DNA from: Vandiemenella viatica
Lineage: Eukaryota > Arthropoda > Insecta > Orthoptera > Morabidae
Assembly (NCBI GenBank): GCA_031002005.1
Contig: JARYHS010011408.1
Span: 221,815,473-221,879,472 of the forward strand
Direction: 5' to 3'
Length of the DNA: 64,000 nt
A model generated the notes under the pieces. It made no database searches and was not told the DNA's origin. It saw only the letters and a list, made by a program, of their open reading frames with translations. This document shows positions 1-62,530 of the stretch, piece after piece. The position numbers were made by a program, and so were the translations under genes. Each line of letters begins with the position of its first letter. The stretch's first letter is position 1.

Positions 1-1240
1 ACTGACTCTCTTCGCTCAAGTCTGTTCACCAGAGAAGGCCCTGCAAGATCATGGGGGCGGCATACCATCAGTCACTTAGCTTGCCATCCAATCATACAAC
101 AATCTATTAGTCTACGAGTTATTACCCAGTTAGATGCAATTAGCATCTTAGATAAGCACTGTTGGGAGGATCCTCCCAGTCATGTTATCGGCTGTATGTT
201 CACGGCTTTCAATGACATTAAATGGGACCTCATAACCGCTAGATGCCTGTTATCATTCATAATAGGATAGAAACTTAGCTGATCATCTAACATGTACCAG
301 CCTTCCCCTATCCTGGTTGCTGAACTTACTAATCGGCTGGTGTCGTATTATTCCTGACAAATTACATCTTATTAATTAGCCCACAAGACGCAAGAGCTCA
401 AGATCATCAAGATAGAAGAGACTTCCACAGCTGCAAGAACGCCACGAGGTTAGGTAAACTCTCCTCTAGAGTCCCACCACAGTTAAAGTCCACAACGAAC
501 CCAAATCTATCCCTCAGCTACCCTGTCAGTCAGATAGGACTCTTACAAAATGATGTAAAATTGGAATATTTATAATTCATTGATAAGGCTATTTGACAGT
601 ATTAAAAATATATTATAAATTGTAGTCATTCTCGTAGATTAATGCTTCAGGGAGCTATTTTTTTTTTTTTAATTTTGAAAATAAAAGTGGTTATTTTTAA
701 CAAAAAAGCGAAATAAAAAAATAGACTTTCCTCACCACTGGTCACGTGACAGAAAACGCTCTAGGATTGGTGGACGCTTGAGTGACATCAACATCTGTAA
801 ACCCTGCGGTTGTGTATGGAGCGTTTAATATTATCCAAGCTTTCAACTATTTTTTATTGTTTGTTGCTGGTTATTTCCTATTATTAATGAAATTTCATTT
901 GGATACAAAATCGAGAACAATTTGTAGTAGACTACAGCAGAAAAATATTTGTATATGATGGAAGACTTGGCATGGAAAGAAGATGAAGGTGCATTAAAGA
1001 AAATAAAGGGTGGCAATGCCACTGAAGATCTTCCATTGGCTCTGAGGAGCAGTAAGCGTTGTGGGAACGCAGTGGTTATATGTAGTACTGAGATTAATGA
1101 TGGTGGCGAAAAAGATTTCAGAAGATTGGTAGTAGAGTATTATTGTGCTGACCTTCAAGAAGGGGAATAAAATAAATGTTATAATGACAGAGAAATTGTG
1201 GCATTTTGTAAAATTCTTCCCCCCTAACTCCTATATTTGA
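1..1240. other. Unassigned non-coding stretch
   Basis: I recognise no gene or repeat here. A 73-residue open frame at 949-1170 (+) contains no family motif I know, and an AT-rich stretch with a T run lies near 661-671. The frame may be chance or the edge of an unknown element. Confidence 0.4.
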
Positions 1241-2889: not shown

Positions 2890-3199
2890 TTCGAATGCTT
2901 GAGACTTGGTTGCATAGTTGCAAATGGCTGATGGTACACTATCATAATGGAAAAACCAATGCATAACAACAAGGCAAATTTAGCCAGCTCTACTAACCCA
3001 TGGCACCAGATCTATGTGAATCAACAAACTGCCATATATTTGACCATTACAGAACTAGATTGGGTCGAAGAAGCTGTTATTTCATGGGGTTTGCACTTTC
3101 AACCCCCCAGCATTTGCTCCACAAATGGAAATCATCAGCGAAGTTGAGTAGACCTTCGGTAGAGTACCAGCAGACTTCACTGAAGAACTCGTATTAAAC
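2890..3199 (+). pseudogene. Old Penelope-like element, 5' part of broken ORF
   Basis: Decayed upstream part of a Penelope-like reverse transcriptase ORF. Short stretches in shifting frames (WVEEAVISWGLHFQPPS, then MEIISEVE, then VPADFTEELVLNMCH) align in order with the region just before the RT core of the intact PLE at 3335-5839. Stops and frame changes show it is dead. The frame runs into the target duplication at 3200-3210 and resumes at 8180, so the younger PLE pair landed inside this ORF. The left limit is not visible. Confidence 0.7.
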
Positions 3200-3210
3200 A
3201 TGTGTCACAT
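3200..3210. repeat. Left target-site duplication of PLE pair
   Basis: The 11-bp sequence ATGTGTCACAT occurs here and again at 8180-8190, exactly flanking the inverted PLE composite. Removing the composite and one copy joins the older PLE reading frame across the site. Confidence 0.88.
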
Positions 3211-3334
3211 TGTAGAAAACACTCTCGGGATTCTAGCCGCGTCAAATAAAAGTCGACTGGCGACGTTTCGAGAGCCGGCACTGCTCCCATTGTCAAGCCC
3301 TGCTTAACTAACTAAAACTGCCTAGCGGTAGTCT

Positions 3335-5839
3335 CTATATAGGGCTACCGGGCGGGAGAGGAGGGGAACTCGCGCGGAGGGCGGGTCTGCTTGGTGACGT
3401 CATGTTCCGGTTGTTGTTATGCCCAAATATGGTCCGCTCCCGTGTGTTTCGTAATTGTTTAATAACTGGCCTCCATGTTTGACTTATGTTAAGTCCTTGA
3501 TCCCGATTTATCACATTGTTATTAACTCTGATTTCAATTGCCTCTTTCACGACACTATCCCAAAAATTATTAGCATGGCAGAGGCGTGTCGTCTTGTCAA
3601 AGCACGGCTCATGACAGTTTTCAAGGGCGTGCTCTACTATAGCCGATTTTTCTTTCTGCCCCAACTTAAAGTATCTTATATGCTCTTTGCGCCTTTCATC
3701 GATCGTTCTCAAAGTCTGTCCTATGTAGGAAGAGCCACACTCACAAGGAATTTTATACACTCCAGGGGCCCGGAGATTTATACAATCTTTCGGGGTTCGT
3801 AATAACTGACGGATCTTAGGCGGGGGCCGAAAGATGGAGCGGATGCCTTGCTTGTTGAGCAGCCTGGCTATTTTCGATGTCACCGCTCCGCAGAAGGGCA
3901 AAAAGGCACGTGGGGTTTCTCGTTCCCTGTCATCCGTTTTGTTTTTGTTTCTTCTTCCGATAATCGCATGTCGAGTTTCTTTGGAACTATAACCATTGGC
4001 CCTAAACACGCGTTCTAAGTGTCGCAGCTCTTCTTGTAGATGCTGATTGTCGGATACCGCCTTTGCCCTGTGGACCAACGTATTCAGTACGCCGCGCTTC
4101 TGAGATGGGTGATGAAAACTAAGGGCGTTTAGATAACGATCAGTGTGTGTGGGTTTTCTATACACACTGTGCCCCAACCTTCCGTTCGGCTTTCGACGTA
4201 CCAATACATCCAGAAAAGGAAGTGCGCCTTCTTTTTCGATTTCCATCGTGAACTTGATGTTGGGGTGAACGCCGTTGAGATAGTTCACAAATTCATATAG
4301 GGCTGGTATCCCATGAGGCCACACGAGGAATGTGTCGTCAACAAATCTATAAAAACACTTGGGCTTTAAAGGGGCCGCGTCAAGAGCTACATGCTCAAAA
4401 TGTTCCATGTAAAAATCGGCAATCACTGGGGATAACGGGGACCCCATGGCCACGCCGTCCGTTTGTTCGTAATACTTTTCTTGGTACACGAAATACGTCG
4501 ATGTGAGCGTGTGTCTGAATAATTCCACGAGTTTTTGGTCAAAATGTTCACTAAGTAGTTCGATTGTTTCCCTTAACGGCACCCGCGTAAATAACGATGT
4601 GACATCCAAACTGACCATGATATCGTCACGCTCTAGTCTCATTGTTTTAACCACTTCCACAAACGCAGCAGAGTTCTTAACGTGGTGTGCACATTTACCC
4701 ACAAACGGACTTAACTGACGTGTGAGGTATTTGGCCAACCTGTACGTCGGCGAATCTATGGCACTAACTATCGGCCGCATCGGAGCATGCTCTTTGTGTA
4801 TTTTTGGTAGGCCATACAATCTTGGTGGTCTTGGGGCTCGGACTGTCAAATTCTTCACTGTTTCTTCCGCCAATCCAGCTTCTTTTATTAAGATATTGGT
4901 TTTTCTGACTGTCCGTGCCGTGGGGTCGCGCGGAAGCACACGATACGCCTCATCATCTAAAACTTCACACATCTTCTGGTGGTAGTCAGTGTTTGTCAGA
5001 ATTACGGTTGAATTTCCCTTGTCTGCTGGTAAAACCACGATTTCGGTGTCTTCCCGTAAAACACGTAAGCCGGCTCGTTCAGCTGCGGTCATATTGGGCT
5101 TAGGTGGTCTGGCCCTCGTCAGGATGCGCGTTGTCTCCCGGCGTACCTCTTCCGCTGCGTCCGTTGGAATATTACGCACAGCTTGTTCCACTCCGCTGAT
5201 GATGTTCATGATAGGCAAGGAACGTGGAGCCGGTGCGAAGTTCAATCCTTTCTTCAGGGCTGAGATAGCACCTTCGTCAATTTCTTTCCCCGATAGGTTA
5301 ATCACGGTTCGTCTGTCTTCGGGTAGCTGGGTGTCGCGCAGATCACGCGACAGGCGGTTGAATTTACAGCACTGCCTGCGCGTGGCCGTCCTTAATATAG
5401 AATTCTGTTGTCCGGTGGTGAAGTTGTCGACCCATTCCCAATCCATCGGCGAGAGGGCTGCTGCTAATAGCAAATGGCGTCCCATTAGTTCTCTAGCATT
5501 TTTGTCGAGGTCACGGCGAGTTTGACGAATCCTCTCCCTTACAATCGCCAGGCTGGTGCGGCGTAAAATCTTCTTTATGGCAGTAGTGTTAGCCGGATGG
5601 TTTACAACGGCAAACCGTGGCACTGTTTCGGTGTCTCTACACCTTAACAGGAAGGCCAGCGAACTCAGTAGTTTGGCCTTCTTGCAGCGCAGCTTCTCCA
5701 GATGTTTAACGCTGCGCGACATATCCTCCCCGTAGAGGTATGTTAAATAACTGTGAACGTTTTCGCGGCGGCAGCACTGTAGAAAACACTCTCGGGATTC
5801 TAGCCGCGTCAAATAAAAGTAAGGGAGAGGATTCGTCAA
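3335..5839 (-). CDS. Penelope-like reverse transcriptase with GIY-YIG endonuclease
   Basis: Single-ORF PLE protein: reverse transcriptase plus GIY-YIG endonuclease, used for target-primed retrotransposition. Visible blocks, with approximate residues: LPADKGNST (about 273), RLYGLPKIHK (about 341), MVSLDVTSLF (about 410), DGVAMGSPLSP (about 461), the catalytic YRFVDDTF box (about 498) and YRKPTHTDRYLN (about 560). The nuclease follows with GVYKIPCECGSSYIGQT (about 693-709), then an Arg/His-rich stretch and Glu in AIVEHALENCH. The frame is open for 834 residues. The first seven residues come from the antisense start of the other copy, so the native start is more likely the Met at 5722 (DMSRSVKHLE). 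The ORF is intact and may be functional. Confidence 0.92.
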   Translation of the reverse strand: MTNPLPYFYLTRLESRECFLQCCRRENVHSYLTYLYGEDMSRSVKHLEKLRCKKAKLLSSLAFLLRCRDTETVPRFAVVNHPANTTAIKKILRRTSLAIVRERIRQTRRDLDKNARELMGRHLLLAAALSPMDWEWVDNFTTGQQNSILRTATRRQCCKFNRLSRDLRDTQLPEDRRTVINLSGKEIDEGAISALKKGLNFAPAPRSLPIMNIISGVEQAVRNIPTDAAEEVRRETTRILTRARPPKPNMTAAERAGLRVLREDTEIVVLPADKGNSTVILTNTDYHQKMCEVLDDEAYRVLPRDPTARTVRKTNILIKEAGLAEETVKNLTVRAPRPPRLYGLPKIHKEHAPMRPIVSAIDSPTYRLAKYLTRQLSPFVGKCAHHVKNSAAFVEVVKTMRLERDDIMVSLDVTSLFTRVPLRETIELLSEHFDQKLVELFRHTLTSTYFVYQEKYYEQTDGVAMGSPLSPVIADFYMEHFEHVALDAAPLKPKCFYRFVDDTFLVWPHGIPALYEFVNYLNGVHPNIKFTMEIEKEGALPFLDVLVRRKPNGRLGHSVYRKPTHTDRYLNALSFHHPSQKRGVLNTLVHRAKAVSDNQHLQEELRHLERVFRANGYSSKETRHAIIGRRNKNKTDDRERETPRAFLPFCGAVTSKIARLLNKQGIRSIFRPPPKIRQLLRTPKDCINLRAPGVYKIPCECGSSYIGQTLRTIDERRKEHIRYFKLGQKEKSAIVEHALENCHEPCFDKTTRLCHANNFWDSVVKEAIEIRVNNNVINRDQGLNISQTWRPVIKQLRNTRERTIFGHNNNRNMTSPSRPALRASSPPLPPGSPI
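5748..5820 (-). repeat. PLE terminal repeat (pLTR-like), central copy
   Basis: A 73-bp sequence at the 5' end of the left copy that matches 8108-8180 in inverse orientation, and in its shorter form 3211-3253. Repeats shared by both ends are typical of PLEs, where they are called pLTRs. Confidence 0.8.
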
Positions 5840-5875
5840 ACTCGCCGTGACCTCGACAAAAATGCTAGAGAACTA

Positions 5876-8026
5876 ATGGGACGCCATTTGCTATTAGCAG
5901 CAGCCCTCTCGCCGATGGATTGGGAATGGGTCGACAACTTCACCACCGGACAACAGAATTCTATATTAAGGACGGCCACGCGCAGGCAGTGCTGTAAATT
6001 CAACCGCCTGTCGCGTGATCTGCGCGACACCCAGCTACCCGAAGACAGACGAACCGTGATTAACCTATCGGGGAAAGAAATTGACGAAGGTGCTATCTCA
6101 GCCCTGAAGAAAGGATTGAACTTCGCACCGGCTCCACGTTCCTTGCCTATCATGAACATCATCAGCGGAGTGGAACAAGCTGTGCGTAATATTCCAACGG
6201 ACGCAGCGGAAGAGGTACGCCGGGAGACAACGCGCATCCTGACGAGGGCCAGACCACCTAAGCCCAATATGACCGCAGCTGAACGAGCCGGCTTACGTGT
6301 TTTACGGGAAGACACCGAAATCGTGGTTTTACCAGCAGACAAGGGAAATTCAACCGTAATTCTGACAAACACTGACTACCACCAGAAGATGTGTGAAGTT
6401 TTAGATGATGAGGCGTATCGTGTGCTTCCGCGCGACCCCACGGCACGGACAGTCAGAAAAACCAATATCTTAATAAAAGAAGCTGGATTGGCGGAAGAAA
6501 CAGTGAAGAATTTGACAGTCCGAGCCCCAAGACCACCAAGATTGTATGGCCTACCAAAAATACACAAAGAGCATGCTCCGATGCGGCCGATAGTTAGTGC
6601 CATAGATTCGCCGACGTACAGGTTGGCCAAATACCTCACACGTCAGTTAAGTCCGTTTGTGGGTAAATGTGCACACCACGTTAAGAACTCTGCTGCGTTT
6701 GTGGAAGTGGTTAAAACAATGAGACTAGAGCGTGACGATATCATGGTCAGTTTGGATGTCACATCGTTATTTACGCGGGTGCCGTTAAGGGAAACAATCG
6801 AACTACTTAGTGAACATTTTGACCAAAAACTCGTGGAATTATTCAGACACACGCTCACATCGACGTATTTCGTGTACCAAGAAAAGTATTACGAACAAAC
6901 GGACGGCGTGGCCATGGGGTCCCCGTTATCCCCAGTGATTGCCGATTTTTACATGGAACATTTTGAGCATGTAGCTCTTGACGCGGCCCCTTTAAAGCCC
7001 AAGTGTTTTTATAGATTTGTTGACGACACATTCCTCGTGTGGCCTCATGGGATACCAGCCCTATATGAATTTGTGAACTATCTCAACGGCGTTCACCCCA
7101 ACATCAAGTTCACGATGGAAATCGAAAAAGAAGGCGCACTTCCTTTTCTGGATGTATTGGTACGTCGAAAGCCGAACGGAAGGTTGGGGCACAGTGTGTA
7201 TAGAAAACCCACACACACTGATCGTTATCTAAACGCCCTTAGTTTTCATCACCCATCTCAGAAGCGCGGCGTACTGAATACGTTGGTCCACAGGGCAAAG
7301 GCGGTATCCGACAATCAGCATCTACAAGAAGAGCTGCGACACTTAGAACGCGTGTTTAGGGCCAATGGTTATAGTTCCAAAGAAACTCGACATGCGATTA
7401 TCGGAAGAAGAAACAAAAACAAAACGGATGACAGGGAACGAGAAACCCCACGTGCCTTTTTGCCCTTCTGCGGAGCGGTGACATCGAAAATAGCCAGGCT
7501 GCTCAACAAGCAAGGCATCTGCTCCATCTTTCGGCCCCCGCCTAAGATCCGTCAGTTATTACGAACCCCGAAAGATTGTATAAATCTCCGGGCCCCTGGA
7601 GTGTATAAAATTCCTTGTGAGTGTGGCTCTTCCTACATAGGACAGACTTTGAGAACGATCGATGAAAGGCGCAAAGAGCATATAAGATACTTTAAGTTGG
7701 GGCAGAAAGAAAAATCGGCTATAGTAGAGCACGCCCTTGAAAACTGTCATGAGCCGTGCTTTGACAAGACGACACGCCTCTGCCATGCTAATAATTTTTG
7801 GGATAGTGTCGTGAAAGAGGCAATTGAAATCAGAGTTAATAACAATGTGATAAATCGGGATCAAGGACTTAACATAAGTCAAACATGGAGGCCAGTTATT
7901 AAACAATTACGAAACACACGGGAGCGGACCATATTTGGGCATAACAACAACCGGAACATGACGTCACCAAGCAGACCCGCCCTCCGCGCGAGTTCCCCTC
8001 CTCTCCCGCCCGGTAGCCCTATATAG
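5876..8026 (+). CDS. 5'-truncated copy of the PLE RT/GIY-YIG ORF
   Basis: Second, plus-strand copy of the protein encoded at 3335-5839. It begins at the equivalent of residue 119 and reads through all RT blocks and the GIY-YIG nuclease to the same stop. Copy sequence starts at about 5820, so the N-terminus is missing; the Met used is internal to the full protein. The C-terminal part carries the single replacement noted in the composite entry. It probably arose in the same integration event as the left copy. Confidence 0.88.
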   Translation: MGRHLLLAAALSPMDWEWVDNFTTGQQNSILRTATRRQCCKFNRLSRDLRDTQLPEDRRTVINLSGKEIDEGAISALKKGLNFAPAPRSLPIMNIISGVEQAVRNIPTDAAEEVRRETTRILTRARPPKPNMTAAERAGLRVLREDTEIVVLPADKGNSTVILTNTDYHQKMCEVLDDEAYRVLPRDPTARTVRKTNILIKEAGLAEETVKNLTVRAPRPPRLYGLPKIHKEHAPMRPIVSAIDSPTYRLAKYLTRQLSPFVGKCAHHVKNSAAFVEVVKTMRLERDDIMVSLDVTSLFTRVPLRETIELLSEHFDQKLVELFRHTLTSTYFVYQEKYYEQTDGVAMGSPLSPVIADFYMEHFEHVALDAAPLKPKCFYRFVDDTFLVWPHGIPALYEFVNYLNGVHPNIKFTMEIEKEGALPFLDVLVRRKPNGRLGHSVYRKPTHTDRYLNALSFHHPSQKRGVLNTLVHRAKAVSDNQHLQEELRHLERVFRANGYSSKETRHAIIGRRNKNKTDDRERETPRAFLPFCGAVTSKIARLLNKQGICSIFRPPPKIRQLLRTPKDCINLRAPGVYKIPCECGSSYIGQTLRTIDERRKEHIRYFKLGQKEKSAIVEHALENCHEPCFDKTTRLCHANNFWDSVVKEAIEIRVNNNVINRDQGLNISQTWRPVIKQLRNTRERTIFGHNNNRNMTSPSRPALRASSPPLPPGSPI

Positions 8027-8047
8027 AGACTACCGCTAGGCAGTTTT

Positions 8048-8180
8048 AGTTAGTTAAGCAGGGCTTGACAATGGGAGCAGTGCCGGCTCTCGAAACGTCG
8101 CCAGTCGACTTTTATTTGACGCGGCTAGAATCCCGAGAGTGTTTTCTACAGTGCTGCCGCCGCGAAAACGTTCACAGTTA
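8048..8180 (+). repeat. PLE 3' tail with hammerhead-ribozyme-like motif and pLTR
   Basis: The 3' tail holds a possible 6-bp stem (GGGAGC with GCTCTC, one G-U pair) followed by CGAAACGTCG, which resembles stem II plus the GAAA box of PLE-associated hammerhead ribozymes. The upstream box reads TTGACAA instead of CTGATGA, so the core is degenerate. The pLTR copy follows at 8108-8180. A mirror copy lies at about 3254-3315 on the minus strand. Catalytic activity is doubtful. Confidence 0.45.
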
Positions 8181-8190
8181 TGTGTCACAT

Positions 8191-9100
8191 TCTCCATAAG
8201 GCTAATTCTGAAAAGAAGAATACAACTGTGTCAGAGTGGTGAGTGCTAAATGAACTGCAGGAGAACAAGGATGTTGTCATTATTACTGCAGGTAATGACA
8301 ATGCCACTATTCTCAAGGCAATGGAAGACTACAGGCATAAAATCCACATTATTCTGGAAAATGAAACTTATGAGAGGCTGAATGAGGCAGATGATTCAAT
8401 AATGTCAGAAGTTAAAAAGAAAATTGTGCCTCTGAAAACTTCAGGTCTTCCACAAGATATTATCAAAAAAAACTTCATCCCCAGCTGCAGTGCCTTCCAG
8501 GTTAAATGGGCTGCCAGAAGTACACAAAGGAAGGATCCCATTGCAACCTACAATGAGTTTACCAATGTACTTGCTATCAAAACATCTCTCCATAGCCCTG
8601 AGCCAATTAGTGGGGGAATGTGCTCACCACATGTGGAATTCAGTGGGGTGTTTTGGCATGCTGAAAGTAACAAATGACATCATGGTCGGTTGTGAGATGA
8701 TGTTGGTTGTAACGAGGATTTGTTTTGGATAATACATTGGAGTTGCTAGACAACATTTATAGCTGCCGATGGTGGATCTTTTCCACCACATGGAGATTTC
8801 AATTTCATTTTCAAAATCAATTATTTTAAACAGCATGAAAAGGTCATCACTTTCTTCAATATGTTCATGGAACATATCCAGGACATGGAAAGCGTGACCA
8901 ACTTGTTTTTATAGATATGAGGATGATTCTTGATGCACAGAAGAGGAAAACTTGATTATTTCCTTAAACATTTTATGTAATAAATTAAAGTATCAAATTT
9001 ACAATAGATGCTGAATAGGAGGGTTTCCTGCCATTTCTGAACTTTTGGTCTGAAAGAAATCAGATGGAACATGTAAGGGAGAAAACCAATACCGGGATTG
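8191..9100 (+). pseudogene. Old Penelope-like element, RT part of broken ORF
   Basis: Continuation of the relic at 2890-3199. Recognisable in order and in several frames: LQENKDVVIITAGNDNATIL (ADKGN block), RLNGLPEVHKG (YGLPKIHK block), LVGECAHHMWNS, NDIMVG, YMEHIQDMES-like text, YRYEDDS (the FVDD box, changed) and EGFLPFLN. Many stops and small indels. It is clearly a different and much older PLE lineage from the intact pair inserted in it. Possible further remains to about 9480 are too decayed to call. Confidence 0.72.
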
Positions 9101-10690
9101 AAGTATCGGTTCAATCACCTTAACTAACCTCCAACTTGCTTTTGGTACTGTCAAAATATTCATTGATCAAACTGTTAAACTGTGTATAAGCCTGGATGAA
9201 TCAACTGTAAGAAATTACAGCTGCCACTTTCCTCACTATCCTCAGGAAAGAAAAGGTTAATATACCCTAATAAGAAATAAGCACTGTTTAAATAAAAAAA
9301 TTCAATATATTCTTCAAAGTAACATCAAAAGTCACAATTGGCTATCAAACAAATCAATTCCTAATCTGCAAGTAATGATGAGGAATAAAAACTGACTGAC
9401 CTCTGTTAATAAATTTCAAAGTATCATTTATCTAATTGACAAATCACACATTCTCAAAATTCATCATGTCTGCCAAAACAATGGTGGTGCGTGACTTCCG
9501 GGACTACCCAGAAGTCCTCGGAGTGCCAAATGCGGCTCTGTGAAACACAGAGTGTGCTTCCAAGAGTTTCAATCAAATGTGGCGTCCTCATGTCCGCTAG
9601 ACGTTATATACCATGGACCCACGACACCTGTATCTTCGCGCTACTAAATATAGTTTGGAAAAATTCTGTAATTTCAAGTGCTCAAAATTTTACAGTGTAA
9701 TGTTTGTGGTCTGTTGATTGATTTAGTTTATGATGGTTATACCTCTAAAGTTACTCAGTTTGCTGTAAATAAATCGAATGTGTTCCGCGCAGCAATACCG
9801 TTTTTTTCATTGGCCGCGGGACTTACTCGAGCTGGCCATCCGGTTTATTATTTTTCAACATTTTGTATGATTTTTCAAATTTAGATTTTAAAACTTATGT
9901 GTGTTCTATGGTCCCTCCAGTTTACAATGTTAGTTATGTTCACTGTACGTGGTGTATTTTAGAAGTTATTAGTCTTACAAAAATAGAAGTGGAGAGACCA
10001 GAAGCTGCCATTGAGTCAGTTTACTATTTTATTAAAATTACTATTAGAAAGATTGTTTATTTGGAGGTATAGTTTACCACACGGCCTCCTGCTTTATTCA
10101 TTCCACATGTTGAAAGTGGTTTTATTTACTGACAGGTGCTAAATCGTCCACAATTGTGATCTGTAATTGCCGGTATTTTTTCCTACTGCATAATTACTTT
10201 TAAAACTGATTTAGTGCTTATTTAACTGTGTGGAATGCTTCAAAACTTTTATATGTTGTGCAGTGTTCTTTATTATTACATAACATTTATTTGTTGGCTC
10301 TGAAAATTACTGAAAACATGTTGTTATGTGGTGTTGAAAATGCGAGTGTGTTTGACGAAGTTTTAAAATCGTGTTTTATTTATTTATTCTGCCTGAATCT
10401 ATTGATTTATAGTAAATTTTACTTTCTCCTGGTTTATTATTTTTATAAATTTACTTTACTGTGTCGAAAGTGTGTAAAAATGACGATGTGGTCACGTAAC
10501 AAAAATCGGTTGTTTACAAGCTGAACTATTGAGAATTGCCATGATTTAGGTGAGTTTGAAAGTTGTTTTCTATTATTAACTGTCTATTTAGAGCTGTTAT
10601 TACATATTAAGTTAGTTTTCTGATTTTAAATCGCCCTACTTTCGGATATAAGCTGCAGTATTGGCTTCTGTATCCCATATTCTGTAGTGA
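9101..10690. other. Unassigned AT-rich stretch
   Basis: No recognisable gene. Short plus-strand open frames (9491-9700, 9678-9884, 9863-10072, 10228-10524) lack motifs and look like chance or relic frames. A slightly GC-richer patch at 9480-9660 starts with a readable MSAKTMVVRDFRDYPEVLG-like frame broken by a stop; I cannot assign it. Confidence 0.35.
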
Positions 10691-10789
10691 CGAGGTGGAG
10701 AATTTACAAATTCTAAGGTGCTTGCACCATCCCCTATGCCCTGTACCCAAGAAATGTAGAATTTACCAAATTTTAAGGTGCTTACAAAC

Positions 10790-10987
10790 ACTAGCAAATG
10801 CAGTGTATAGAAAACCAACCCACACCAATCTATCCCTCAGGACACACAACTTTCATCATCCTAATCAGCACTGTTCGGTATTATCAAACACATTGCACCA
10901 TACCAGATTGTTGTAGTGCACAGTTTTCCAACATCATCTCAAATTATTTACAATGTACATTTCACACAAATGGATACAGCAATGTGC
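10790..10987 (+). pseudogene. Second decayed PLE, C-terminal RT end
   Basis: The frame VYRKPTHTNLSLRTHNFHHPNQ matches the post-RT block of the intact PLE (VYRKPTHTDRYLNALSFHHP). It is followed by a FHTNGYSN block equivalent to FRANGYSS. The remainder of the protein continues at 11242 after a SINE insertion. Confidence 0.72.
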
Positions 10988-10995
10988 GGATCAGC

Positions 10996-11233
10996 AGACC
11001 GAGCGTGGTGGTGTAACGGATAGCGTTCTGGCTTCGCATTCGGGAGGACGGCGGTTCGAATCCCCATCCGGGCATCCAGATTTGGTTTTCCATGGTTTCC
11101 CAAATCACTCCAGGCAAATGCTGGGATGCTTCCTTAAAAAGGCCATGGCCGAATTCCTTCCCATTCCTTGCCCCCATCCTTTCCTGTCTCTAAAGACCTC
11201 GCTGTTGAGAGACGTAAAGCAGTTTAAAAAAAT
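10996..11233 (+). mobile_element. tRNA-headed SINE, family 1
   Basis: A Pol III-type short retroelement. The head has a B-box-like GGTTCGAATCC and an A-box-like segment near GTGGTGTAACGG. The body holds the insect-type block TTTCCCAAATCACTCCAGGC and GGCCATGGCCGAATTCC. Near-identical flanks GGATCAGC and GGATCAAC (10988-10995 and 11234-11241) look like a short target duplication. It interrupts the PLE relic. It is not a functional tRNA gene. Confidence 0.85.
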
Positions 11234-11241
11234 GGATCAAC

Positions 11242-11570
11242 GGGGCCTTTCGCAAGGAAGGCAAGAGGCAGCAAGATGCTCAACAGCTTTCCTTTTCATC
11301 ATACGCTGGAAAAACTGTCAACCCAGCAAGGTAAGAGATTTACTAAGCAGTACAAACGAAGGGTTGGTTCTCAGACAGCTAGATATTTATTCAATCCCTT
11401 GTAATTGGGGGAAGCAGTACATCGGGCAAATAGTACAATTTCAACACTGTACGGAACACACGAGATGTGTGCACCTGGGACAAGTGATGAAGTTTGTGGT
11501 AGCTTTACACAACACAGAAATGAAACTCGGGCTTGACACGAATACTTTCCCAGCTAATCTTATGGGGTTG
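11242..11570 (+). pseudogene. Second decayed PLE, GIY-YIG region
   Basis: DIYSIPCNWGKQYIGQ matches the GIY-YIG core of the intact PLE (GVYKIPCECGSSYIGQ). HLGQVMKFVVALHNTE matches its downstream Glu region. An open frame survives through the SINE junction to about 11633, but upstream parts are missing or shifted. The remnant belongs to the same relic as 10790-10987. Confidence 0.72.
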
Positions 11571-21194: not shown

Positions 21195-22190
21195 TCATGT
21201 GGAAATTACTCATGCAGAGGCGGCGCTCCACTTCAACTCTAATTTAGCTATCACTAAGGTCAAATTATTGGCCTGTAATTTTTAACTCTATTGGTCACCA
21301 TTCCTTAATGGATTTTTTATATTTTTTTTTTAATTACAGCTTTACGCCTTGTCGACAACTAAGGTCATTAGAGGCGGGATGGGACTGGGGACAAGGAATG
21401 GGAAGGAATTTGGCCATGCCCTCTTTGAAGGAAGCCTCCCAGCATTCGCCTGGAGTGATTTGGGGAAACCACGGAAAACACAAATCTGAAAGCCTGGACG
21501 GGGATTCGAACCCGTGTCCTCCCGAATGCGAGGCCAGAACGTTAACCGTTCTCCCACCACGCTTGGTTTCCTTAATGGACTGATGCTACTATCACACCAG
21601 TCCTCTATTCCTCTAGTCTCTAGATTTAAATTATTTTCAACTTCTTAATGCTTTTTTATCTTTCTTAGTTCCTTCATAACACAAAAATTTTAAATTTGTA
21701 AGTCAGATTTACTTGTGTGGACAAGCTCCGCATCTGATTTAGACCATCCTGATCCTGAATCATAGTTTCTAATGGCCTCATAAAAATAGTTACCTAATAT
21801 CTCCATCTTTTTCAATTCCTAAGTTACTTCTTCTCCAACTATGCATCATTGTCATAATACCCTCCCTTCTCCTCAGTTTTCAAACAGTGCGATAGAAATT
21901 TCTAGATGTATCGTTCAGTGGTCCCTCTGCATCCATAATATTCTGCATAAACTGTTCTTTAGCTTCCCCCTTTACTCCCATCGATTCTTAGTATAGTTGT
22001 TCTACTGCCTTGCTATCTCTTAACTCTGTTGTGTTCTCTTCAAACCAGCCATTTTTGCTTCCTAAAGTCCCTATAATAGTATGTACCTTCCATACTTTTA
22101 TTTATTTTCTCTTTGGGAATAAACATTTTTCTCCCATTCATATAATCTCTTTGAACTGTTCCAACCGACTCTATTGTAATTGTTTATTCA
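21195..22190 (-). pseudogene. LINE B relic, 5' part, antisense
   Basis: Minus-strand sequence similar to 48760-49200 and 50497-50575 of the LINE B copy near 49 kb, for instance TAGAAATTTCTAGATGTATC at about 21894. Interrupted by the SINE at 21313-21567. No open frame. Confidence 0.55.
21313..21567 (-). mobile_element. tRNA-headed SINE, family 1
   Basis: On the minus strand it has GGTTCGAATCCCCGTCC (B box), the CAAATCACTCCAGGCGAATG block and an A-rich tail. It is flanked by a perfect 12-bp target duplication, TTCCTTAATGGA, at 21301-21312 and 21568-21579. Same family as 10996, 25530 and 52584. It sits inside a LINE B relic. Confidence 0.92.
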
Positions 22191-34299: not shown

Positions 34300-34424
34300 G
34301 GGCTAAGATTCAAAAATTTCAATTACATTTGTGTTTTTGTCTGTTTTATGTGTTCATACCACACAACCATCATCTAAGGTAAGTGGTGGTTCATTTCCCT
34401 ATCCTATATTGTAATTCCTATATA
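34300..34424 (+). repeat. Fragment related to the foldback at 20916
   Basis: Shares TTGTGTTTTTGTCTG, GTAAGTGGT and TTTCCCTATCCTATATTG with 21030-21110. The mariner at 34425 inserted in its TATATA end. Confidence 0.55.
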
Positions 34425-35780
34425 TACAGGGTGTCCACAAATGAATATCGGGGTTTTAATGCTTTATAAGATTTATTACATTATCCTTACAGTTATAAAT
34501 GATATGTCAAATGAAAGAGCAACTCAAACAGTTTTGTTCGTTGGCACTAGTGCGCATGTGTGTGAAATGTTTCCGCTGCGATCCGCTAGAATGCGGTAGT
34601 AGCAAAGATGGCGACTAGTGAAGAGAAAGCGTTTTGTGTTTTACAGTTTGCAAAGACTGAATCTGTAGTTACTGTGCAGCGTGCGTTCCGCATTAAGTTC
34701 GGGCGTGATCCTCCAAGTGACAATAACATCCATAGATGGTATCATCAGTTTGAAGATACAGGCTGCCTTTGTAAAGGGAAGAGCACGGGACGACCAAGAG
34801 TTAGCGAAGAGACTGTTGAGCGAGTGAGAGAGTCGTTCACTCATAGCCCAAAGAAATCTGTTCGGAAGGCTAGTCGCGAATTAGAAATTTCTAAGTCGAC
34901 TGTTTGGAAAGTTTTAAGGAAACGCTTGCAACTACGTCCTTACCGTTTACAGTTGTTACAGGCTCTAAAGCCTGCAGACCATGGTTTACGTGCCAAATTC
35001 GCTAACGAAATGTTGTTACATGACGATGAAGATTTTCTACATCATGTTGTCTTCAGTGATGAATCGACCTTTCACCTCAGTGGACATGTTAACACTCATA
35101 ATGTGCGGATCTGGGGCTCAGAAAATCCTAAGAGATCGTACAAGTGCAACGAGACTCCCCTAAAATCAATGTTTTTTGTGCCGTATCCCGGCGGAAAGTT
35201 TACGGACCTTTCTTTTTTGATGAACCGACTGTAACTGGTACTTCTTACCTTGATACACTAGAGCAATGGCTCTTCCCTCAGTTGGAACAATATGAACCAG
35301 AGAACTTCATTTTCCAGCAAGATGGTGCGCCACCTCACTGGCATAATGAAGTACATGGTTGGTTGAACGTAACTGTACCCGACCGCTGGATTGGCCGCAA
35401 GGGGCCCAATGACAGAGCTTGCTATGCGTGGCCTCCACGTTCACCTGACCTAACGCCATGCGATTTCTACCTTTGGGGTTTCATCAAGGATCGTGTGTAT
35501 GTGCCTCCGTTACCAGCCGACCTCCTTGAATTACGACAGAGGATTGAAGCAGCTGTTGCAACAGTTACTGAAGACACACTGCTCAACGTTTGGGAAGAAC
35601 TCGGCTACAGACTTGATGTGTGCCATGTGACAAATGGTGCCCACATAGAACACTTGTAAGCTTGTATATAAAACTGTTTGAGTTGCTCTTTCATTTGACA
35701 TATCATTTATAACTGTAAGGATAATGTAATAAATCTTATAAAGCATTAAAACCCCGATATTCATTTGTGGACACCCTGTA
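34425..35780 (+). mobile_element. Mariner-type transposon with 111-bp inverted repeats
   Basis: Complete element of the IS630-Tc1-mariner superfamily. Inverted repeats 34425-34535 and 35670-35780 appear identical over 111 bp, starting TACAGGGTGTCCACAAATG. TA flanks both ends (34423-34424 and 35781-35782). The transposase inside has a single frameshift. The long, well-kept termini suggest recent activity, perhaps mobilised in trans. Confidence 0.93.
34608..35659 (+). pseudogene. Mariner-type transposase (DD46D) with one frameshift
   Basis: Two overlapping frames, 34608-35234 and 35144-35659, make one transposase split by a shift at about 35130-35150. Part one has the DNA-binding region (GRPRVSEE hinge) and the first Asp in FSDESTFHLSGHVN. 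Part two begins near QRDSPKINVFCA and carries FQQDGAPPHWHNE and SPDLTPCDFYLWG. The spacing between the second and third Asp is 46, because a NDRACY insertion precedes AWPPRSPD. Related to the DD41D protein at 1443-2489 but clearly a different family. Otherwise undamaged. Confidence 0.88.
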
Positions 35781-35782
35781 TA

Positions 35783-43148: not shown

Positions 43149-43583
43149 TGTTCAGTCTGCCCCTGCCAGGCAGACCTCACACACAACGCGCCTGCACGCC
43201 GGGATACATATACGACTCCAAACAGGCGCAGAGGCATCAAAACAAACCAGGAAAACAAATAGAATCATCTAGAAGCTAAGTGGGACTATTTCTTGCAGAG
43301 GTCGCCGTACTACCACACAACGGAATTCCAGCGCCAGGCCGCCTATATAAGCGTAGCCGGCCGCTCCACCGCCAGTTCCAGCCTGACCGCTGAACCAGCG
43401 TCAACTACAGAAGACCACCGGAAGTTCGCGAGAAGTAGAAGCCGTCACTCTACCCCGGATCAGGACCAGGCTGAAATTCTCGACGGTCTTCTGATAACTG
43501 TACCCACATTTGTTTATGGTTTACCTGTTGTATTGTGTACCGAGTAATAAACTTCAAGGAACCGTTAAGTGTAGTTCACTTCA
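43149..43583 (+). repeat. Gypsy 5' LTR
   Basis: Nearly identical to 47921-48366; it lacks about 10 bp after TGTTCAGTCTG and has a few small indels. It has a TATATAAGCG promoter-like box at about 43344, an AATAAA signal at about 43545, and GTGGCGACGAGG just after its end as the probable primer-binding region. Confidence 0.92.
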
Positions 43584-43619
43584 GTGGCGACGAGGTTGGG
43601 ATAAGAACTCTCGACCATC

Positions 43620-45878
43620 ATGGCTACGCCAGCAGCACCTACGGAATGGCAACAGTTCCTCCAAGGACTTCTACATCAGTTCTTCGAATCTCAGAGACAA
43701 CTGATTGCGGAAGTCAGGAATCTCCGCCAACCCACGGCCCCGCCTCCGTTCCCAGCATTCAACGACGACGTCGAGGAATGGGAGACCTACGAGAAGCGCA
43801 TAAGACAACACTTCGCAATTCACCACATAACCAAAGAAGAAGACCAACGTGCATATTTCCTTTCCTGGAACCAATCGAAGATGTATGTCTTGCTCACCAA
43901 ACTTCAGCCACAAGACCCCGACACCCTCACATTCACGACCATCTGTACGACACTGAATGCATACTACAGACGCCGGTACCATGTCGTCGCGGCCCGCGTC
44001 GAATTCTATCAATGCCGGAAGAAGCCCGATCAGACGTATCGCCAGTGGGCGGCCGAACTCCAAGGCCTTAGCAGAAAATGTAAGTTTCAAACTCGTTGTT
44101 CCCACGAATCCTACGCCGACGACATGGTGCGTGATCACATCATACAGGCTGCACCAGATGCCACACTCCGGCATGACGCCCTCAAGTTAGAGGACCCATC
44201 CCTGGAGCAGGTCATCGAACTTGCCTACAAATTCGAAATATCTACGGCCGCAGATCGCCGCCTGGAGTCCTGGGCGGATGTGGCCGCAATCCGAACCGAC
44301 GTAGAGGACACACAGGACGTCGCCGCCATCCAGAGCTCCCAGTCGCGCTCCTCCCGACACCACAACCGGGGACCGCTTCCTCAGAAGGACATCGAACCGG
44401 CCCGTTCCGGCAGGGGCACCAATTCTCGGCAGCAGCAGCGGATCCCGCAGCGCCGACGCCGCAGCCCGCTCCGCCTACCCTCCTGCCCCGCCTGTTATTC
44501 AGCACATGAGAGGGAAAATTGTCCGGATCGTTGGGCTGAATGCTCACGTTGCGGCAAGGAAGGACACCTGGCGTCCGTCTGCCGCACCAACACCACCAAT
44601 GCCAATCCCGGCTCTCGCCGCCCAGGGTCTTACCAAGACAGGTTGAGCGGCGCACCTATGGATATCAATCAGGTAGACACTTCCACTGCATCCAAACTTT
44701 TTATTGACGTTACGGTCAATGGCAAGCCTCTGCGCCTACAAGTCGACACAGGAGCAGCAGTCTCATTGCTTAATTATACTACTTATGTGCAAATTGGCTC
44801 GCCCCCCCTCTCGCCGGCCCCCAAGCGCCTCCTGACATACAACAAACAGGAAATAATAGCACTCCTGGGACAATTCACAGCAAACGTCATGTATAAGTCT
44901 GTACATCGTTCAGTCCCCTTTTTAGTAGTTAACAGTTCTCTCACAGCAGACTTATTTGGACTGGACGCTTTCCGCTTATTCGGATTTTCAATTGAGGATA
45001 ACATACACCTCGTATCTCAGCATGTTCCTTTTCCTGAAGTGGACGCCCTTTGCACCGAGTTTCAGGACCTGTTCTCACCAGGCGTCGGCTGTGCAAAGGA
45101 CTTCGAAGCATCACTCCAACTCCGGCCGGACGTACGGCCTCGATACTTCCGGGCACGCCAGGTACCCGTAGCGCTTCAACAACCACTTCAGAAAGAACTT
45201 CAACGTCTCCAAGACGAAGGGATCCTCCAGCCGGTGCGGTTCAGCCCCTGGGCCACGCCGTTGGTCATAGTTCAGAAGCCAGGACGCCGCTTACGTCTCT
45301 GTGGTGACTTTAAGACCACCGTCAACCCGCATCTGCTGGTAGACGATTATCCACTTCCGAGACCGGACGACCTCTTCCGTAAACTAGCAGGAGGTACCTA
45401 CTTTACAAAAATTGACCTGGCAGAAGCATACCTTCAAATCCCTTTGGATATCCAGTCCCGACAATACACAGTCATCAACACTCCCTATGGCCTCTTCCAA
45501 CTCAACCGGCTCATGTTCGGCTTGGACAGTGCTCCAGCGATTTTTCAACGGTATCTCGAACAACTTCTCCAGGATATTCCGGGATGCATCAACTATCTCG
45601 ACGACATAGTCGTCACGGGACCCTCCGCTGCCGAACACATGACCAACCTCCGCCTACTCTTCCTCCGCCTCCGTGCAGCAGGATTGAAATGCAACCTTTC
45701 CAAGTGTCAATTTTTTCAACAATCCATTTCCTACCTGGGTCACATCATCGCTCAGGAAGGCATTTCCCCAGCATTTTCCTATGTGGACGCTATTTCCAAC
45801 TTACCTCGGCCTCAGGATCTACATCAGTTGAAATCTTTTTTAGGCAAGATTTCATACTACAGAAAATTTATACCCTAA
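43620..45878 (+). CDS. Gypsy gag-protease-reverse transcriptase
   Basis: Capsid-like gag occupies about residues 1-280 (FPAFNDDVEEWETYEKRIRQ and the YRQWAAELQGL region). A CCHC knuckle, CSRCGKEGHLASVC, follows at about 306. Protease has LQVDTGAAVSLLN at about 374. Reverse transcriptase runs from about 500, with LRLCGDFKTTVNPH, YFTKIDLAEAYLQIPL, YGLFQLNRLMFGLDSAPA and the catalytic INYLDDIVV at about 658. The start Met at 43620 follows a short leader after the LTR. A single TAA at 45876-45878 ends the frame just before RNase H, which continues in the same frame. Confidence 0.92.
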   Translation: MATPAAPTEWQQFLQGLLHQFFESQRQLIAEVRNLRQPTAPPPFPAFNDDVEEWETYEKRIRQHFAIHHITKEEDQRAYFLSWNQSKMYVLLTKLQPQDPDTLTFTTICTTLNAYYRRRYHVVAARVEFYQCRKKPDQTYRQWAAELQGLSRKCKFQTRCSHESYADDMVRDHIIQAAPDATLRHDALKLEDPSLEQVIELAYKFEISTAADRRLESWADVAAIRTDVEDTQDVAAIQSSQSRSSRHHNRGPLPQKDIEPARSGRGTNSRQQQRIPQRRRRSPLRLPSCPACYSAHERENCPDRWAECSRCGKEGHLASVCRTNTTNANPGSRRPGSYQDRLSGAPMDINQVDTSTASKLFIDVTVNGKPLRLQVDTGAAVSLLNYTTYVQIGSPPLSPAPKRLLTYNKQEIIALLGQFTANVMYKSVHRSVPFLVVNSSLTADLFGLDAFRLFGFSIEDNIHLVSQHVPFPEVDALCTEFQDLFSPGVGCAKDFEASLQLRPDVRPRYFRARQVPVALQQPLQKELQRLQDEGILQPVRFSPWATPLVIVQKPGRRLRLCGDFKTTVNPHLLVDDYPLPRPDDLFRKLAGGTYFTKIDLAEAYLQIPLDIQSRQYTVINTPYGLFQLNRLMFGLDSAPAIFQRYLEQLLQDIPGCINYLDDIVVTGPSAAEHMTNLRLLFLRLRAAGLKCNLSKCQFFQQSISYLGHIIAQEGISPAFSYVDAISNLPRPQDLHQLKSFLGKISYYRKFIP

Positions 45879-45887
45879 GCAGCACAA

Positions 45888-46655
45888 GTGGCAGCACCCC
45901 TGTACCACCTCTGTCGCAAGAATGTCCCGTTCCGTTGGACCCCAGCTTGCGAGACCGCATTCCACACCCTTAAACAGCAGCTCAAGTCCGCAGCATGCCT
46001 CATGCCATACACTCCAAACCTCCCCTTGATACTTGCCACAGATGCATCCGATTACGGTGTGGGGGCAGTTCTGTCTCATAAATTACCAGATGGCACGGAA
46101 CGCCCCGTAGCTTACATCTCCAAAGCCCTATCGGCTGCTCAGCTTAAATATTCTCAAATCGAGAAAGAGGCGCTAGCTATTGTTTTTGCCTGCTCCAAAT
46201 TCTATTCCCTTTTATATGGGATTTCTTTTCATCTCATTACCGACCACAAGCCACTCCTATCACTATTTGATCCGTCCACACGTCTGCCTACCAAAACATC
46301 CCACCGCATCCAGCGTTGGGCACTATTCCTGTCCCAGTTCAGATATACCATGCATTTCCGTACCACCTCCAGGCATGCCAATGCAGACGCCTTATCCAGA
46401 CTACCGCAGGGACCAGACCTTGCCTTCGACAAGTCGGAACTTCTGGTGTTCCAGATCGACGATGACATACAAGAAGCACTGAAGACATTTCCAGTCACGG
46501 CCTCAAAAGTCGCGGCAGCCACAGGGGAGGACCCCCTCCTCCGTTACATCCGACACCACATCCAACACGGGTGGCAAACACGTTCCCCTCCACGCCATCA
46601 TCAAGACCTCAAGTTCTACTACTCCATCCGCCACCAGCTCTCAGTAGTAGAGGGA
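45888..46655 (+). pseudogene. Gypsy pol continuation: RNase H
   Basis: Same frame as the upstream gag-pol after one in-frame stop. It encodes the RNase H domain: LILATDASDYGVGAVLSHKL, AYISKALSAAQLKYSQIEKE and LITDHKPLLSLF, then the linker toward integrase (RHANADALSRLP). A frameshift at about 46650 moves the coding frame; beyond it this frame is a shadow to 46883. It cannot be translated as one protein without bypassing the stop. Confidence 0.85.
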
Positions 46656-47683
46656 GAATCCTCCAAACTCTCCACCAAGGACACTGGGGAATTGCCCGCA
46701 CCAAATCCCTTGCCAGACGCCATGTATTCTGGATCGGCCTTACCACGGATGTCACGGAGATGGTGCGGCGCTGTACCATCTGTGCCCAACAACTGCCCCG
46801 CCCCCCTCAAAAGTTCCTTTCCTGGCCGGCACCGTCCGGACCCTGGGAACGCATTCACCTCGACTTCGCTGGCCCATTCCTAGGCCACCAGTGGCTCCTA
46901 GTGACGGATGCCTTTTCCCACTTCCCATATGTCGTCCGTTGCTCCACAATCACCACAGAGGTCACCATTTCAGCCCTCACGAAGATCTTTACCATCGAAG
47001 GATTACCATACGCCATCGTCACAGATAACGGACCGCAATTTCGAAGTCGGGAATTCCTATCCTTCTGTACCGCCAACAATATCCAACACCTCCTCACCCC
47101 GCCCTTCCACCCCCAATCTAACGGGGAGGCGGAACGGCTAGTCAGAACATTCAAAACCCAAATGACCAAATACACCACAAGTCACAAACTCGAAGAGGCA
47201 TTGACACTCTTCCTCAGTTCCTATCGAACCACTCCAGTGGGGGCCAAAAGCCCGGCGGAATTGCTGCATGGCCGCCAACCTCGCACTCTCCTCCATCTCC
47301 TCTTACCCCCGCCCAAAGTACAGGTACCTTCGGGCCCATTCCGTTTCACCCCGGGCTCCCTAGTCTGGGCCCGCGGGTTTGGCTCCCGGGCCGGTTGGCT
47401 TCCGGGGGTCATCCAGCGGCCCCGGGGCCGCCAACTGTTCGACGTCAGCCTGGATGGCCGGATAGTGCGACGCCATCGAAACCAACTACGTCCCCGCTAC
47501 CCCACGGCACCGTCCTCTTCCACCACGGCACGGCCATCCACTTCTTCCTCTCCTTCCCTGCCACCTCCACCACTCCTGCCATCTAACCGTTGCTCAGGGA
47601 CAGTTACAGCGCCACCAACGACGCCACAACCTGTCGGTCGCTCCGACACCCTTCAGCCGCAGCCTCTCGACCACCTGCGGTGA
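46649..47683 (+). pseudogene. Gypsy pol continuation: integrase
   Basis: After the frameshift the new frame gives the His/Cys zinc-binding region (LHQGHWG through RRCTICAQ) and the catalytic core with HLDFAGPF, IVTDNGPQF and SNGEAERLVRTFK. The spacing between the second Asp and the Glu is 35, the DD35E triad. A TGA at 47681 ends the frame, but the same frame continues to 47938 with a proline- and arginine-rich tail (PRRRSARIARGTA), so the original protein was longer. Confidence 0.88.
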
Positions 47684-47920
47684 CCATCTTCAACGCCCCC
47701 CGTACAGTCCCCGGCCATCGACGCCGACGAACCGATGCCGTTAGCTCCACAAGTACCTCCACCACAACCTGCACCACGACGCAGGTCGGCACGCATCGCC
47801 AGGGGAACAGCTCCGTACTCCCCTGGAGGTAGCCTTCATAGTCTGCTCCAGGGCGCCGCGGCAGACGACCTCGCAGACGTCGCAGACATCGCTTCCCCCC
47901 CCCCCCCCGGGAGGGAGGTA

Positions 47921-48366
47921 TGTTCAGTCTGCCAGTAAAGGCCCCTGCCAGGCAGACCTCACACACAACGCGCCTGCACGCCGGGATACATATACGACTC
48001 CAAACAGGCGCAGAGGCATCAAAACAACCAGGAAAACAAATTGAATCATCTAGAAGCTAAGTGGGACTATTTCTTGCAGAGGTCGCCGTACTACCACACA
48101 ACGGAATTCCTGCGCCAGGCCGCCTATATAAGCGTAGCCGGCCGCTCCACCGCCAGTTCCAGCCTGACCGCTGAACCAGCGTCAACTACAGAAGACCACC
48201 GGAAGTTCGTGAGAAGTAGAAGCCGTCTCACTCTACCCCGGATCAGGACCAGGCTGAAATTCTCGACGGTCTTCTGATAACTGTACCCACATTTGTTTAT
48301 GGTTTACCTGTTGTATTGTGTACCGAGTAATAAACTTCAAGGAACCGTTAAGTGTAGTTCACTTCA
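47921..48366 (+). repeat. Gypsy 3' LTR
   Basis: Counterpart of 43149-43583. Few differences from it, consistent with a recent insertion. Confidence 0.93.
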
Positions 48367-60084: not shown

Positions 60085-62530
60085 TTGCAACACTCTGCCT
60101 AAACTGTGAACATAGAAGTTCATGACCTGTGTAACCTTCTGGTACCTTAATATTTAATAATTTGGGCGCCACGGGTTTGTATTATGATCCCCAAACATGA
60201 AGGGTATAATGAAATAAGTTCTCTTGACACAGTTTTTGAATCACACAATGCTTATATTCTTGAAAGTTCACTCATATATTGTCAGTAACAGAATAGCAGA
60301 TAAAACATCAGACAACAGTTCCATTGAAGACTGACAGATTAAGCACATTCATACAAGAAGACAAATTCACTAAGTCCCCCTAACGTTAGTGAGGAACGAT
60401 TACGGCATGTTACGACGTGCCGTAACAACTTCCGCATGGGGCAGATCGCTCTGCAAACTGACACGAAGTTACCTTTTAGATAACTATCGAAAGACTGGAA
60501 AAATTCAAGATGGCTGCAGGGACCTTTATAAGCTTTTAAATTCCTATGAAGTCAGCAAATTCTTTCAGGAATTAATATCTCCCAATACACTAAATGGTTT
60601 AACCTGCAAATACTGCAAGGTCATCGTGTGATCTATCTATTTTAATTTAATTCAGCATTCAAAAGGATTTCCATAAGATTAACCGTGAAGTCTCTTCTGT
60701 CACCAGCTTGGCAGAATTTGACACACTCCAACAACAATTAGCAACAATCTATCTTCAAAATTTTAATTATCTCACAAATGCATAAACTTTTTGCCAAAAC
60801 CATTATATATTCATAATCCTCTCACTTTAGGCTATTTACTGATATAAATTTCTCAATTATATTGCTTTTAGTTAAAAACTTAATTTTTTTTTCTTAATTA
60901 AAACCGCAAATTAATTTTTTTCCAAATTAGTTAATTTTACTATCAAAATCTTCTAGGCAGTGCTGAATATAGCTGGTGATAAAATATTAGCTGTGACTTT
61001 ACTCAATTCAAAGTTATTCAAAATCTTAAATGCTTGCTTTCCTCGTGTTTCAAAACATAAACAAACCAAATTATCTCTTAAACAAAATTTTTTGGGACAT
61101 AATTAATAGACTTAGAAATAATTATTATAGCGATTTTTCACTGTGGAAATGAATGCAGGAAAATCCATTCCATTTGAAAATTACTTAATGCGAAATTTCT
61201 CTGTTCTGCATAAGCGACTTCAAAATCGAACTATAGAGTATATTACTGCTGGGGATAGATAGTGGGAATGCTTTTGGTGAACTATAGTATAAGGCACCCT
61301 TTAGTTCACGAAGGGCATTCCCACTAGCCATCCCCAGTAGTAAAATATTCTATAAATCGATTTTGAAGTCGCTTATGCTGGACTTAGAAATTTCGAGAAG
61401 AGTAATTGTCAACTTGAAGAAATTTCCCTGTATTCATTTCCACAGTTAGAACTCATCATTAGAATCATTTTAAAGTGTATTCATTACATCGGGAAAAATT
61501 TATTTTACGAGATAATTTAGTTTGTTCACGTTTTGAAACACGTGATCAGAAAAGTAAAAAGCTAAGATTCGAGATATCTTCGAATTGAGTAAAGCTACAG
61601 CTGAACTTTTATCACCAGCTATAGTCAGCATTGTTCCAGATATTTTGGTAGTAAAATTAACTAATTTGGCAAAGTTTAATTAGCAGTTTTAATTAAGAAA
61701 ATAATGAACTTTTTAACTAAAAGGAATACTTATTTGAAATTTATATCAGTAGATAGCCCAAATTGAGATGATTACGAACATATAGTGGTTTTGGTAAAAA
61801 AATTTAAGCATTTGTCAGATAATTAAGTTTTAAAGATAGATTGTCACGGATTGTTGTTGAAGCACATAAAAATTCTGCTAAGTTGGTCACATGATGACTT
61901 CAGTTTTAAGATTATAGAAACCCTTTTGAATGTCAAATTAAATTAAAACAGATAGAACATTAGGAAGCCCCTGTAAAAATTTCAAGTTAAACTATTTAGT
62001 ACTTTTGGAGATATTAATTAAAGAAAAAGTTGCTTACGTCATAGGCTCTGAGAAGACTATAAAAGATCTTACAGCGAGCTCAGATTGTCTCACTCCGCTA
62101 TATATTTTCAAAGAAGTAGCTTCGTAATATTTAGTCTCATTATTTCACCGGAAAGTGATCGCGCAACTCTGCGCTAATTAGCGGAGCGAATTGTTGTACG
62201 GTAGCGGTTTTGGCAAATTCCAGCATGCTGTAGAACTCACTAATGTTAGGGGACTTGTGAGTTTTTGTCTTCTCATATGATTGTGCTTAACCTGTAATCT
62301 TGAATGAAACTGTTGGTCGATGCTTTATCAACATATCTGGTACTGACAATGTACAAGTGAACTTTTCCAAGAATATAAATATTTTGTTACTCTGAAGCTG
62401 TGTCAAGTGAACTTATTTCAATTACCCTTCGTATTTGGGGTTTAAATACGAATGTGTGGCAGCCGATTCATTTAATATTATAGGTACTAGAAGACTACAC
62501 ATGGTCATGAACTTATTAGTCACAGTAACA
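60085..62530. repeat. Large palindrome built from two 1.2-kb repeat units
   Basis: The left arm (about 60085-61286) and right arm (about 61299-62530) are inverted copies with moderate divergence. Inner ends are GGGAATGCTTTTGGTGAACT and its inverse AGTTCACGAAGGGCATTCCC. A single unit occurs at 32582-33745. Arms contain TATAAAAG-like boxes (62070 on plus; TTTATAAGC near 60520). No coding capacity. TAAGGCACCC sits at the centre, and its inverse GGGTACCTTACA at 62545-62556 hints that the unit has short inverted ends. Confidence 0.8.

Follow-up and report, generated by a model that had tools for sequence, protein, structure and literature searches.

Two described systems come closest to the insertion studied here, a head-to-head pair of Penelope-like element (PLE) copies in the genome of the orthopteran Vandiemenella viatica (contig JARYHS010011408.1, positions 221,815,473 to 221,879,472; this whole 64-kb stretch is referred to as the window). 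One is PAc, a Poseidon-type PLE of Anolis carolinensis, and the other is Pen2a_Av of Adineta vaga. In the available text of PMC11167929, to which our statements on PAc are limited, purified PAc protein can cut both DNA strands in vitro and extend each of them, and reverse transcription most commonly starts 111-118 nt into the open reading frame (ORF), at a position that has no homology with the DNA being cut. PAc has two adjacent start sites of reverse transcription, and the stretch between them constitutes the tail. That work ends at the cutting and extension of both strands, with the later steps called not yet validated. In PMC3846280, again as far as its available text goes, head-to-head is the most frequently observed orientation of PLE pairs, and self-priming on an antisense template is the preferred account, with an unspliced sense template left open. 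Inverted pseudo-long terminal repeats (pLTRs) and 3' extensions have also been noted for PLEs in the accessible part of PMC8969392, and that of PMC7761336 reports that PLEs bear minimal type I hammerheads of unknown role, while the portions available of PMC12910113, PMC6431247, and PMC5718144 add nothing further on mechanism. PMC3846280 had already described inverted PLE pairs that have a target duplication and carry a tail on one of their arms; the interest of the present locus lies in the mechanism that it points to.

At this locus, a 4,969-bp insert (3211-8179) is enclosed by two exact copies of an 11-bp target-site duplication, ATGTGTCACAT. The initial annotation had noted this sequence on both sides of a composite of roughly 5 kb. 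It occurs exactly twice in the window, where 0.09 occurrences would be expected, and at least two were seen in 1 of 100 shuffles. The duplication adjoins the insert as a whole, and for either PLE copy taken on its own it amounts to at most 2 bp. The two copies form exact inverted arms (3211-5542 and 5819-8150) that are offset from one another by 276 nt at the center. Alignment confirmed their near-identity, with a single mismatch in 2,332 bp; the repeat finder drew the arms slightly wider (3208-5542 and 5819-8153), which adds a second mismatch at the left end, where 3 bp belong to the target duplication. The start of the left copy is at ORF position +38, or +40 if the GT common to both copies is given to the right one, and its end at +80 in the next unit (positions are counted from the in-frame ATG within the hammerhead-like motif discussed below); a 46-bp stretch of its 3' terminus recurs at its 5' terminus with a spacing of 2,567. 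The ORF's first 37 nt, predicted ATG included, are missing from it, while the right copy retains 735 of the 827 codons of the left frame. The initial annotation had proposed a single event that placed one full and one 5'-truncated copy head to head with one duplication, and all of this fits the data except for the word full.

The insertion target is, as judged from protein alignments, an older PLE, because its decayed frame aligns across the join of the two flanks and scores best with one 11-bp copy. When the insert and one copy of the duplication are taken out, the sequence across the flanks becomes ...EELVLNMCHILHKANSEKK..., and an alignment of the PLE protein runs over it with no gap at the join. 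With a profile built from a 24-row PLE protein alignment, the domain across this join scored 76.0 bits, the highest of five joins tested. Over the same profile region, the rival joins scored 59.3 with both copies retained, 49.1 with neither, 52.8 with one more base retained, and 61.3 with one more base removed, and the separate, unjoined flanks scored 4.1 and 52.9. This bears out the earlier claim that the joined flanks give one Penelope frame, now a decayed one. The older PLE had also been confined to 2890-9100, which proved too narrow, as its pieces reach 9153 and two further pieces (Table 1) are probably the remainder of it, split by other sequence. The approximately 1.6 kb of other sequence at 9154-10790, which parts two stretches of the older PLE, is probably a further insertion.

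The two outer ends of the composite are unequal, a point that goes beyond the initial annotation, as do the tail found on the right arm only and the placement of the left copy's 5' start relative to a predicted ribozyme cut. The left arm ends sharply at 3211, or +80, while the right arm runs 29-31 bp further, to +109..111, the last 2 bp of this tail also being part of the target duplication. The tail matches the 5' part of the left copy at 31 of 31 positions, and the longer stretch at 8108-8181 does so at 74 of 74. In contrast, the outer 31 bases of the right arm match a fold-back copy of the left arm at only 8 of 31. The left arm's outer end has no counterpart of the right arm's tail, which means that the arms are not simple fold-back copies of one another in either direction. 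In a codon alignment with PAc, which has a two-codon gap, +109..111 corresponds to PAc +115..117, and the right end thereby falls within the main PAc start of reverse transcription at 111-118 (PMC11167929). The left end at +80 lies 31-38 nt before that PAc interval, and the stated length of PLE tails is 30-40 bp.

We consider it probable, from the arrangement of the sequence, that a GIY-YIG PLE gave rise to the composite in one insertion, through priming on both target strands. Cuts by the element's endonuclease would be staggered by 11 bp between the two strands, so that both sides carry a 3' end 5'-...CACAT-OH, and from each of these a sense PLE RNA of several units would be reverse transcribed. 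One strand would start at the tail-less site and the other at the tail site. The left cDNA would end 8-10 nt short of the 5' end of a hammerhead-processed RNA, whereas the right cDNA would stop early, after which the two cDNA 3' ends may join via their GT/AC overlap and the second strands be filled in. Judged by the geometry of the target duplication, each strand would have had a 3' end ...CACAT that runs on into antisense PLE sequence, as two-strand priming on a sense RNA predicts.

The far end of the template in this proposal is set by a hammerhead-like motif that is present in both copies, and the predicted cut after 8099 (+29) falls at the same place as in the matching PAc motif. The 5' end of the left copy follows this predicted cut at a distance of 8-10 nt, and we estimate that a random 5' end would fall this near downstream of it at roughly 10 of 2,567 positions. 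This suggests that the template RNA may have been cut at the putative hammerhead site. The hammerhead is predicted from motif order alone. The motif occurs nowhere else in the window, and there were 0 matches in 60 simulated windows (first-order Markov) for a pattern that was drawn after seeing the sequence, so that the simulation is no clean test of it. Its U3-A8 core may possibly be a compensated variant of the PLE ribozyme.

Several observations weigh against priming from both strands or against the part played by the hammerhead. The evidence comes from one locus, and no second composite of the element's family was found in the window, the viral contigs, and the genome contigs searched. In the viral contigs, the PLE protein query returned two stretches and the 24-row alignment 13, with 0 relatives in either case; in the genome contigs, the alignment returned 16 stretches and one relative (30% identity, at a contig start), which was not used. 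The role of +80 as a start of reverse transcription is inferred from the alignment and the tail length, and the alignment with PAc is weak over the first 29 residues (9 of 29 identical, no gap). The cut motif favored by PAc, 5'-ATT-3', is found at the inferred top-strand cut (CACAT/T) and not at the bottom one (CACAT/G). The target duplication is near-palindromic, with 5 of 5 arm pairs, as are 111 of the 63,990 11-mers of the window, and this might point to symmetric cutting. We did not adopt a rule of symmetric cutting, as the 8-bp duplication GAATTAAT in the available text of PMC3846280 is not palindromic as a whole. The core of the hammerhead-like motif, UUGACAA...GAAACGUC, is non-canonical, with U3-A8 in place of the canonical C3-G8, and the C3-G8 pattern does not occur in the window. 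Rfam returned no hammerhead match at gathering or relaxed thresholds; its one relaxed match, to tracrRNA (E=5), was taken as chance. Folding of 8050-8181 showed no unusual stability (z -0.17), and the hammerhead fold was not obtained. For PAc itself, the available text of PMC11167929 reports that no RNA-seq reads begin or end at the hammerhead site and that hammerhead mutants are without effect on insertion in vitro.

Among other explanations, self-priming comes nearest to priming from both strands, and we regard it as unlikely. Here, an antisense RNA or the first cDNA would fold back at the element's 5' end and prime its own copying, and the resulting hairpin would then integrate. Such a process would produce the head-to-head orientation and near-identical arms that we see, and it is the reading preferred for head-to-head PLE pairs in the Discussion of PMC3846280. 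However, an arm copied in this way must end with its template, yet it is the right arm, truncated at the center, that is 29-31 bp longer at its outer end, and self-priming would require the left end to have been trimmed later to exactly the tail boundary. The argument made in PMC3846280 relies, in the text available, on junction palindromes, but no palindrome was found at the center here (longest exact hairpin arms 2 bp, for centers 5800-5840 and loops of 0-6). The locus therefore speaks against self-priming.

Two separate insertions, in which a second copy landed later at the 5' end of the first, are highly improbable. PLEs can enter other PLEs, as the host here and the insertion of Pen2a_Av in Pen3 (PMC3846280) illustrate. 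A single 11-bp duplication nevertheless encloses both copies, with at most 2 bp around either alone, and the arms have a single difference in 2,332 bp. Near-perfect inverted repeats are also a known type of assembly artefact, but we give very little credence to a chimeric fold-back read, as this would mirror flank and insert together and give identical outer ends, while the arms here stop at the target duplication, have outer ends that differ by 29-31 bp, and show a 276-nt offset at the center. L1 twin priming yields an inverted product through reverse transcription primed by both target strands, and its two pieces derive from one RNA and have no 3' region in common. Our locus is alike in its inverted product and proposed two-strand priming, but unlike L1 each arm has its own 3' region, and the presence of the 3' end in both arms together with their 2.3-kb overlap rules out twin priming of the L1 type.

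Table 1. Positions in the window of the PLE composite, its parts, and the older PLE that it interrupts.
Feature	Position	Strand	Remarks
Older decayed PLE frame, left flank	3098..3199 (start approximate)	+	Protein alignment, profile
Target-site duplication, left copy, ATGTGTCACAT	3200..3210	.	11 bp; element boundary at 3211
Left PLE copy	3211..5820	-	2,610 bp, read 5820->3211; nearly full
Hammerhead-like motif, left copy	3259..3299	-	Same motif as in right copy
Open frame	3335..5818	-	827 aa + stop; reverse transcriptase and predicted GIY-YIG endonuclease region
Center junction	5819..5820	.	GT common to both copies; 2-nt microhomology
Right PLE copy	5819..8150, with tail to 8179/8181	+	5'-truncated by 278 bp relative to left copy
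Hammerhead-like motif, right copy	8062..8102	+	U3-A8 core, 6-bp stem II, 3-bp stem I; ORF ATG at 8071
Tail	8151..8181	+	29-31 bp, start of next tandem unit; right arm only
Target-site duplication, right copy, ATGTGTCACAT	8180..8190	.	11 bp; exact match to left
Older decayed PLE, right flank	8191..9153	+	Protein alignment, profile; stops and frame changes
Further PLE piece, VYRKPTHT region	10791..10913	+	PLE protein alignment
Further PLE piece, GIY-YIG region	11322..11519	+	PLE protein alignment

By its sequence, the element is a PLE with a GIY-YIG endonuclease. Its frame carries an RVT_1 match at residues 341-499 (3.6e-10), and in family searches with the PLE protein as the only query it matched 400 proteins at E<=0.001 among 7,997 candidates scored. 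The best 120 of the 400 include proteins of Periplaneta, Ischnura, Cryptotermes, and Anolis, with 46-54% identity for the first 12, and 23 of these 120 together with the window's protein make up the 24-row alignment. One Anolis protein, P0016, the start of which resembles that of PAc, shares 44% identity with the query over 96% of the frame. In the GIY-YIG region of the left copy, GVY is found at 686-688 and YIG at 698-700, and the copy has the residues Y688, Y698, G700, R709, and E712 that are invariant in the alignment, although the Pfam GIY-YIG model gave no match to the frame at E<=0.001. A single ORF for the reverse transcriptase, the tail, and the short (11-bp) target duplication are all as in PLEs, and the 46-bp repeat together with the tail running into the next unit fits tandem, pLTR-bearing units. 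There is no complete tandem copy in the window, and outside of the composite the window has no match to it longer than 23 bp.

The sole difference between the arms, at position 7520 (T in the right copy, C in the left), sits at a CG dinucleotide and amounts to an R -> C substitution. The left base is probably the older state, because the residue is K, R, or E in 17 of 23 aligned relatives and C in none. This one difference between two 2,332-bp arms corresponds to a divergence of 0.0002 changes per site (95% Poisson range 0.000005-0.0012). The event had been called recent, which fits this value, and the open left frame agrees with a young insertion. Arm identity alone gives no date for it, as gene conversion between inverted arms could mask older differences.

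Other features of the window were also seen. A Mariner-like element, named by eye, lies at about 1243-2610; its inverted ends are approximately 30 bp long, and its open frame has 366 codons from stop to stop. An element at 34423-35782 has 113-bp complementary inverted ends and two open stretches (214 and 175 codons) of transposase-like appearance by eye, and 43159-48366 is a probable long terminal repeat retrotransposon, with 427-bp terminal repeats that are 98.6% identical and open stretches of 757, 405, and 334 codons. The sequences at 10993-11089 and 21476-21572 form an inverted pair (81%) in which a tRNA-like stretch was noticed by eye and which may represent a family of short interspersed elements, and 61044-61542 holds an imperfect hairpin with 244-nt arms, 79% complementary and 11 nt apart.

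How a PLE insertion is completed after the first cut is an unsolved question, and this locus ties the in vitro biochemistry to inverted structures in genomes because the two ends of a genomic product lie at different positions that fit two start sites. We found no statement in the available literature, in which few subscription papers were covered, that attributes inverted pairs to two-strand priming at two start sites. We would tentatively extend the proposal, while thinking it somewhat more likely to fail than to hold, to head-to-head PLE pairs in general, which may be the regular product of double-strand target priming rather than self-priming, with one tail-less and one tailed start and a far end set by the hammerhead. 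If true, double-strand priming would explain why a tail is reported on one of two inverted ends. Whether the tail is on one arm, both, or neither is a simple count obtainable from any PLE-rich genome.

Compared with PAc, the element has an ORF that likewise starts at stem II of the predicted hammerhead, and the end of its right arm coincides in the alignment with the PAc start of reverse transcription. The PAc core is C3-G8, whereas that of the present element is U3-A8, and PAc is described as tandem repeats, with no inverted composite discussed in the available text of PMC11167929, while we see an inverted pair. The resemblance to Pen2a_Av (PMC3846280) extends to the whole arrangement, as this is also a head-to-head inverted copy inserted in another PLE. 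Its target duplication measures 9 bp and the tail, on one inverted end, 31 bp, against 11 bp and 29-31 bp here. The locus had been put forward as a clean example of how such composites form, and its junctions are indeed clean, but the arrangement is one already commonly reported. The inverted piece of Pen2a_Av is a 181-bp pLTR, whereas the one here is 2.33 kb with 735 open codons; this length alone is not new, because PMC3846280 mentions longer inverted parts for two Pen3 copies on detached contigs.

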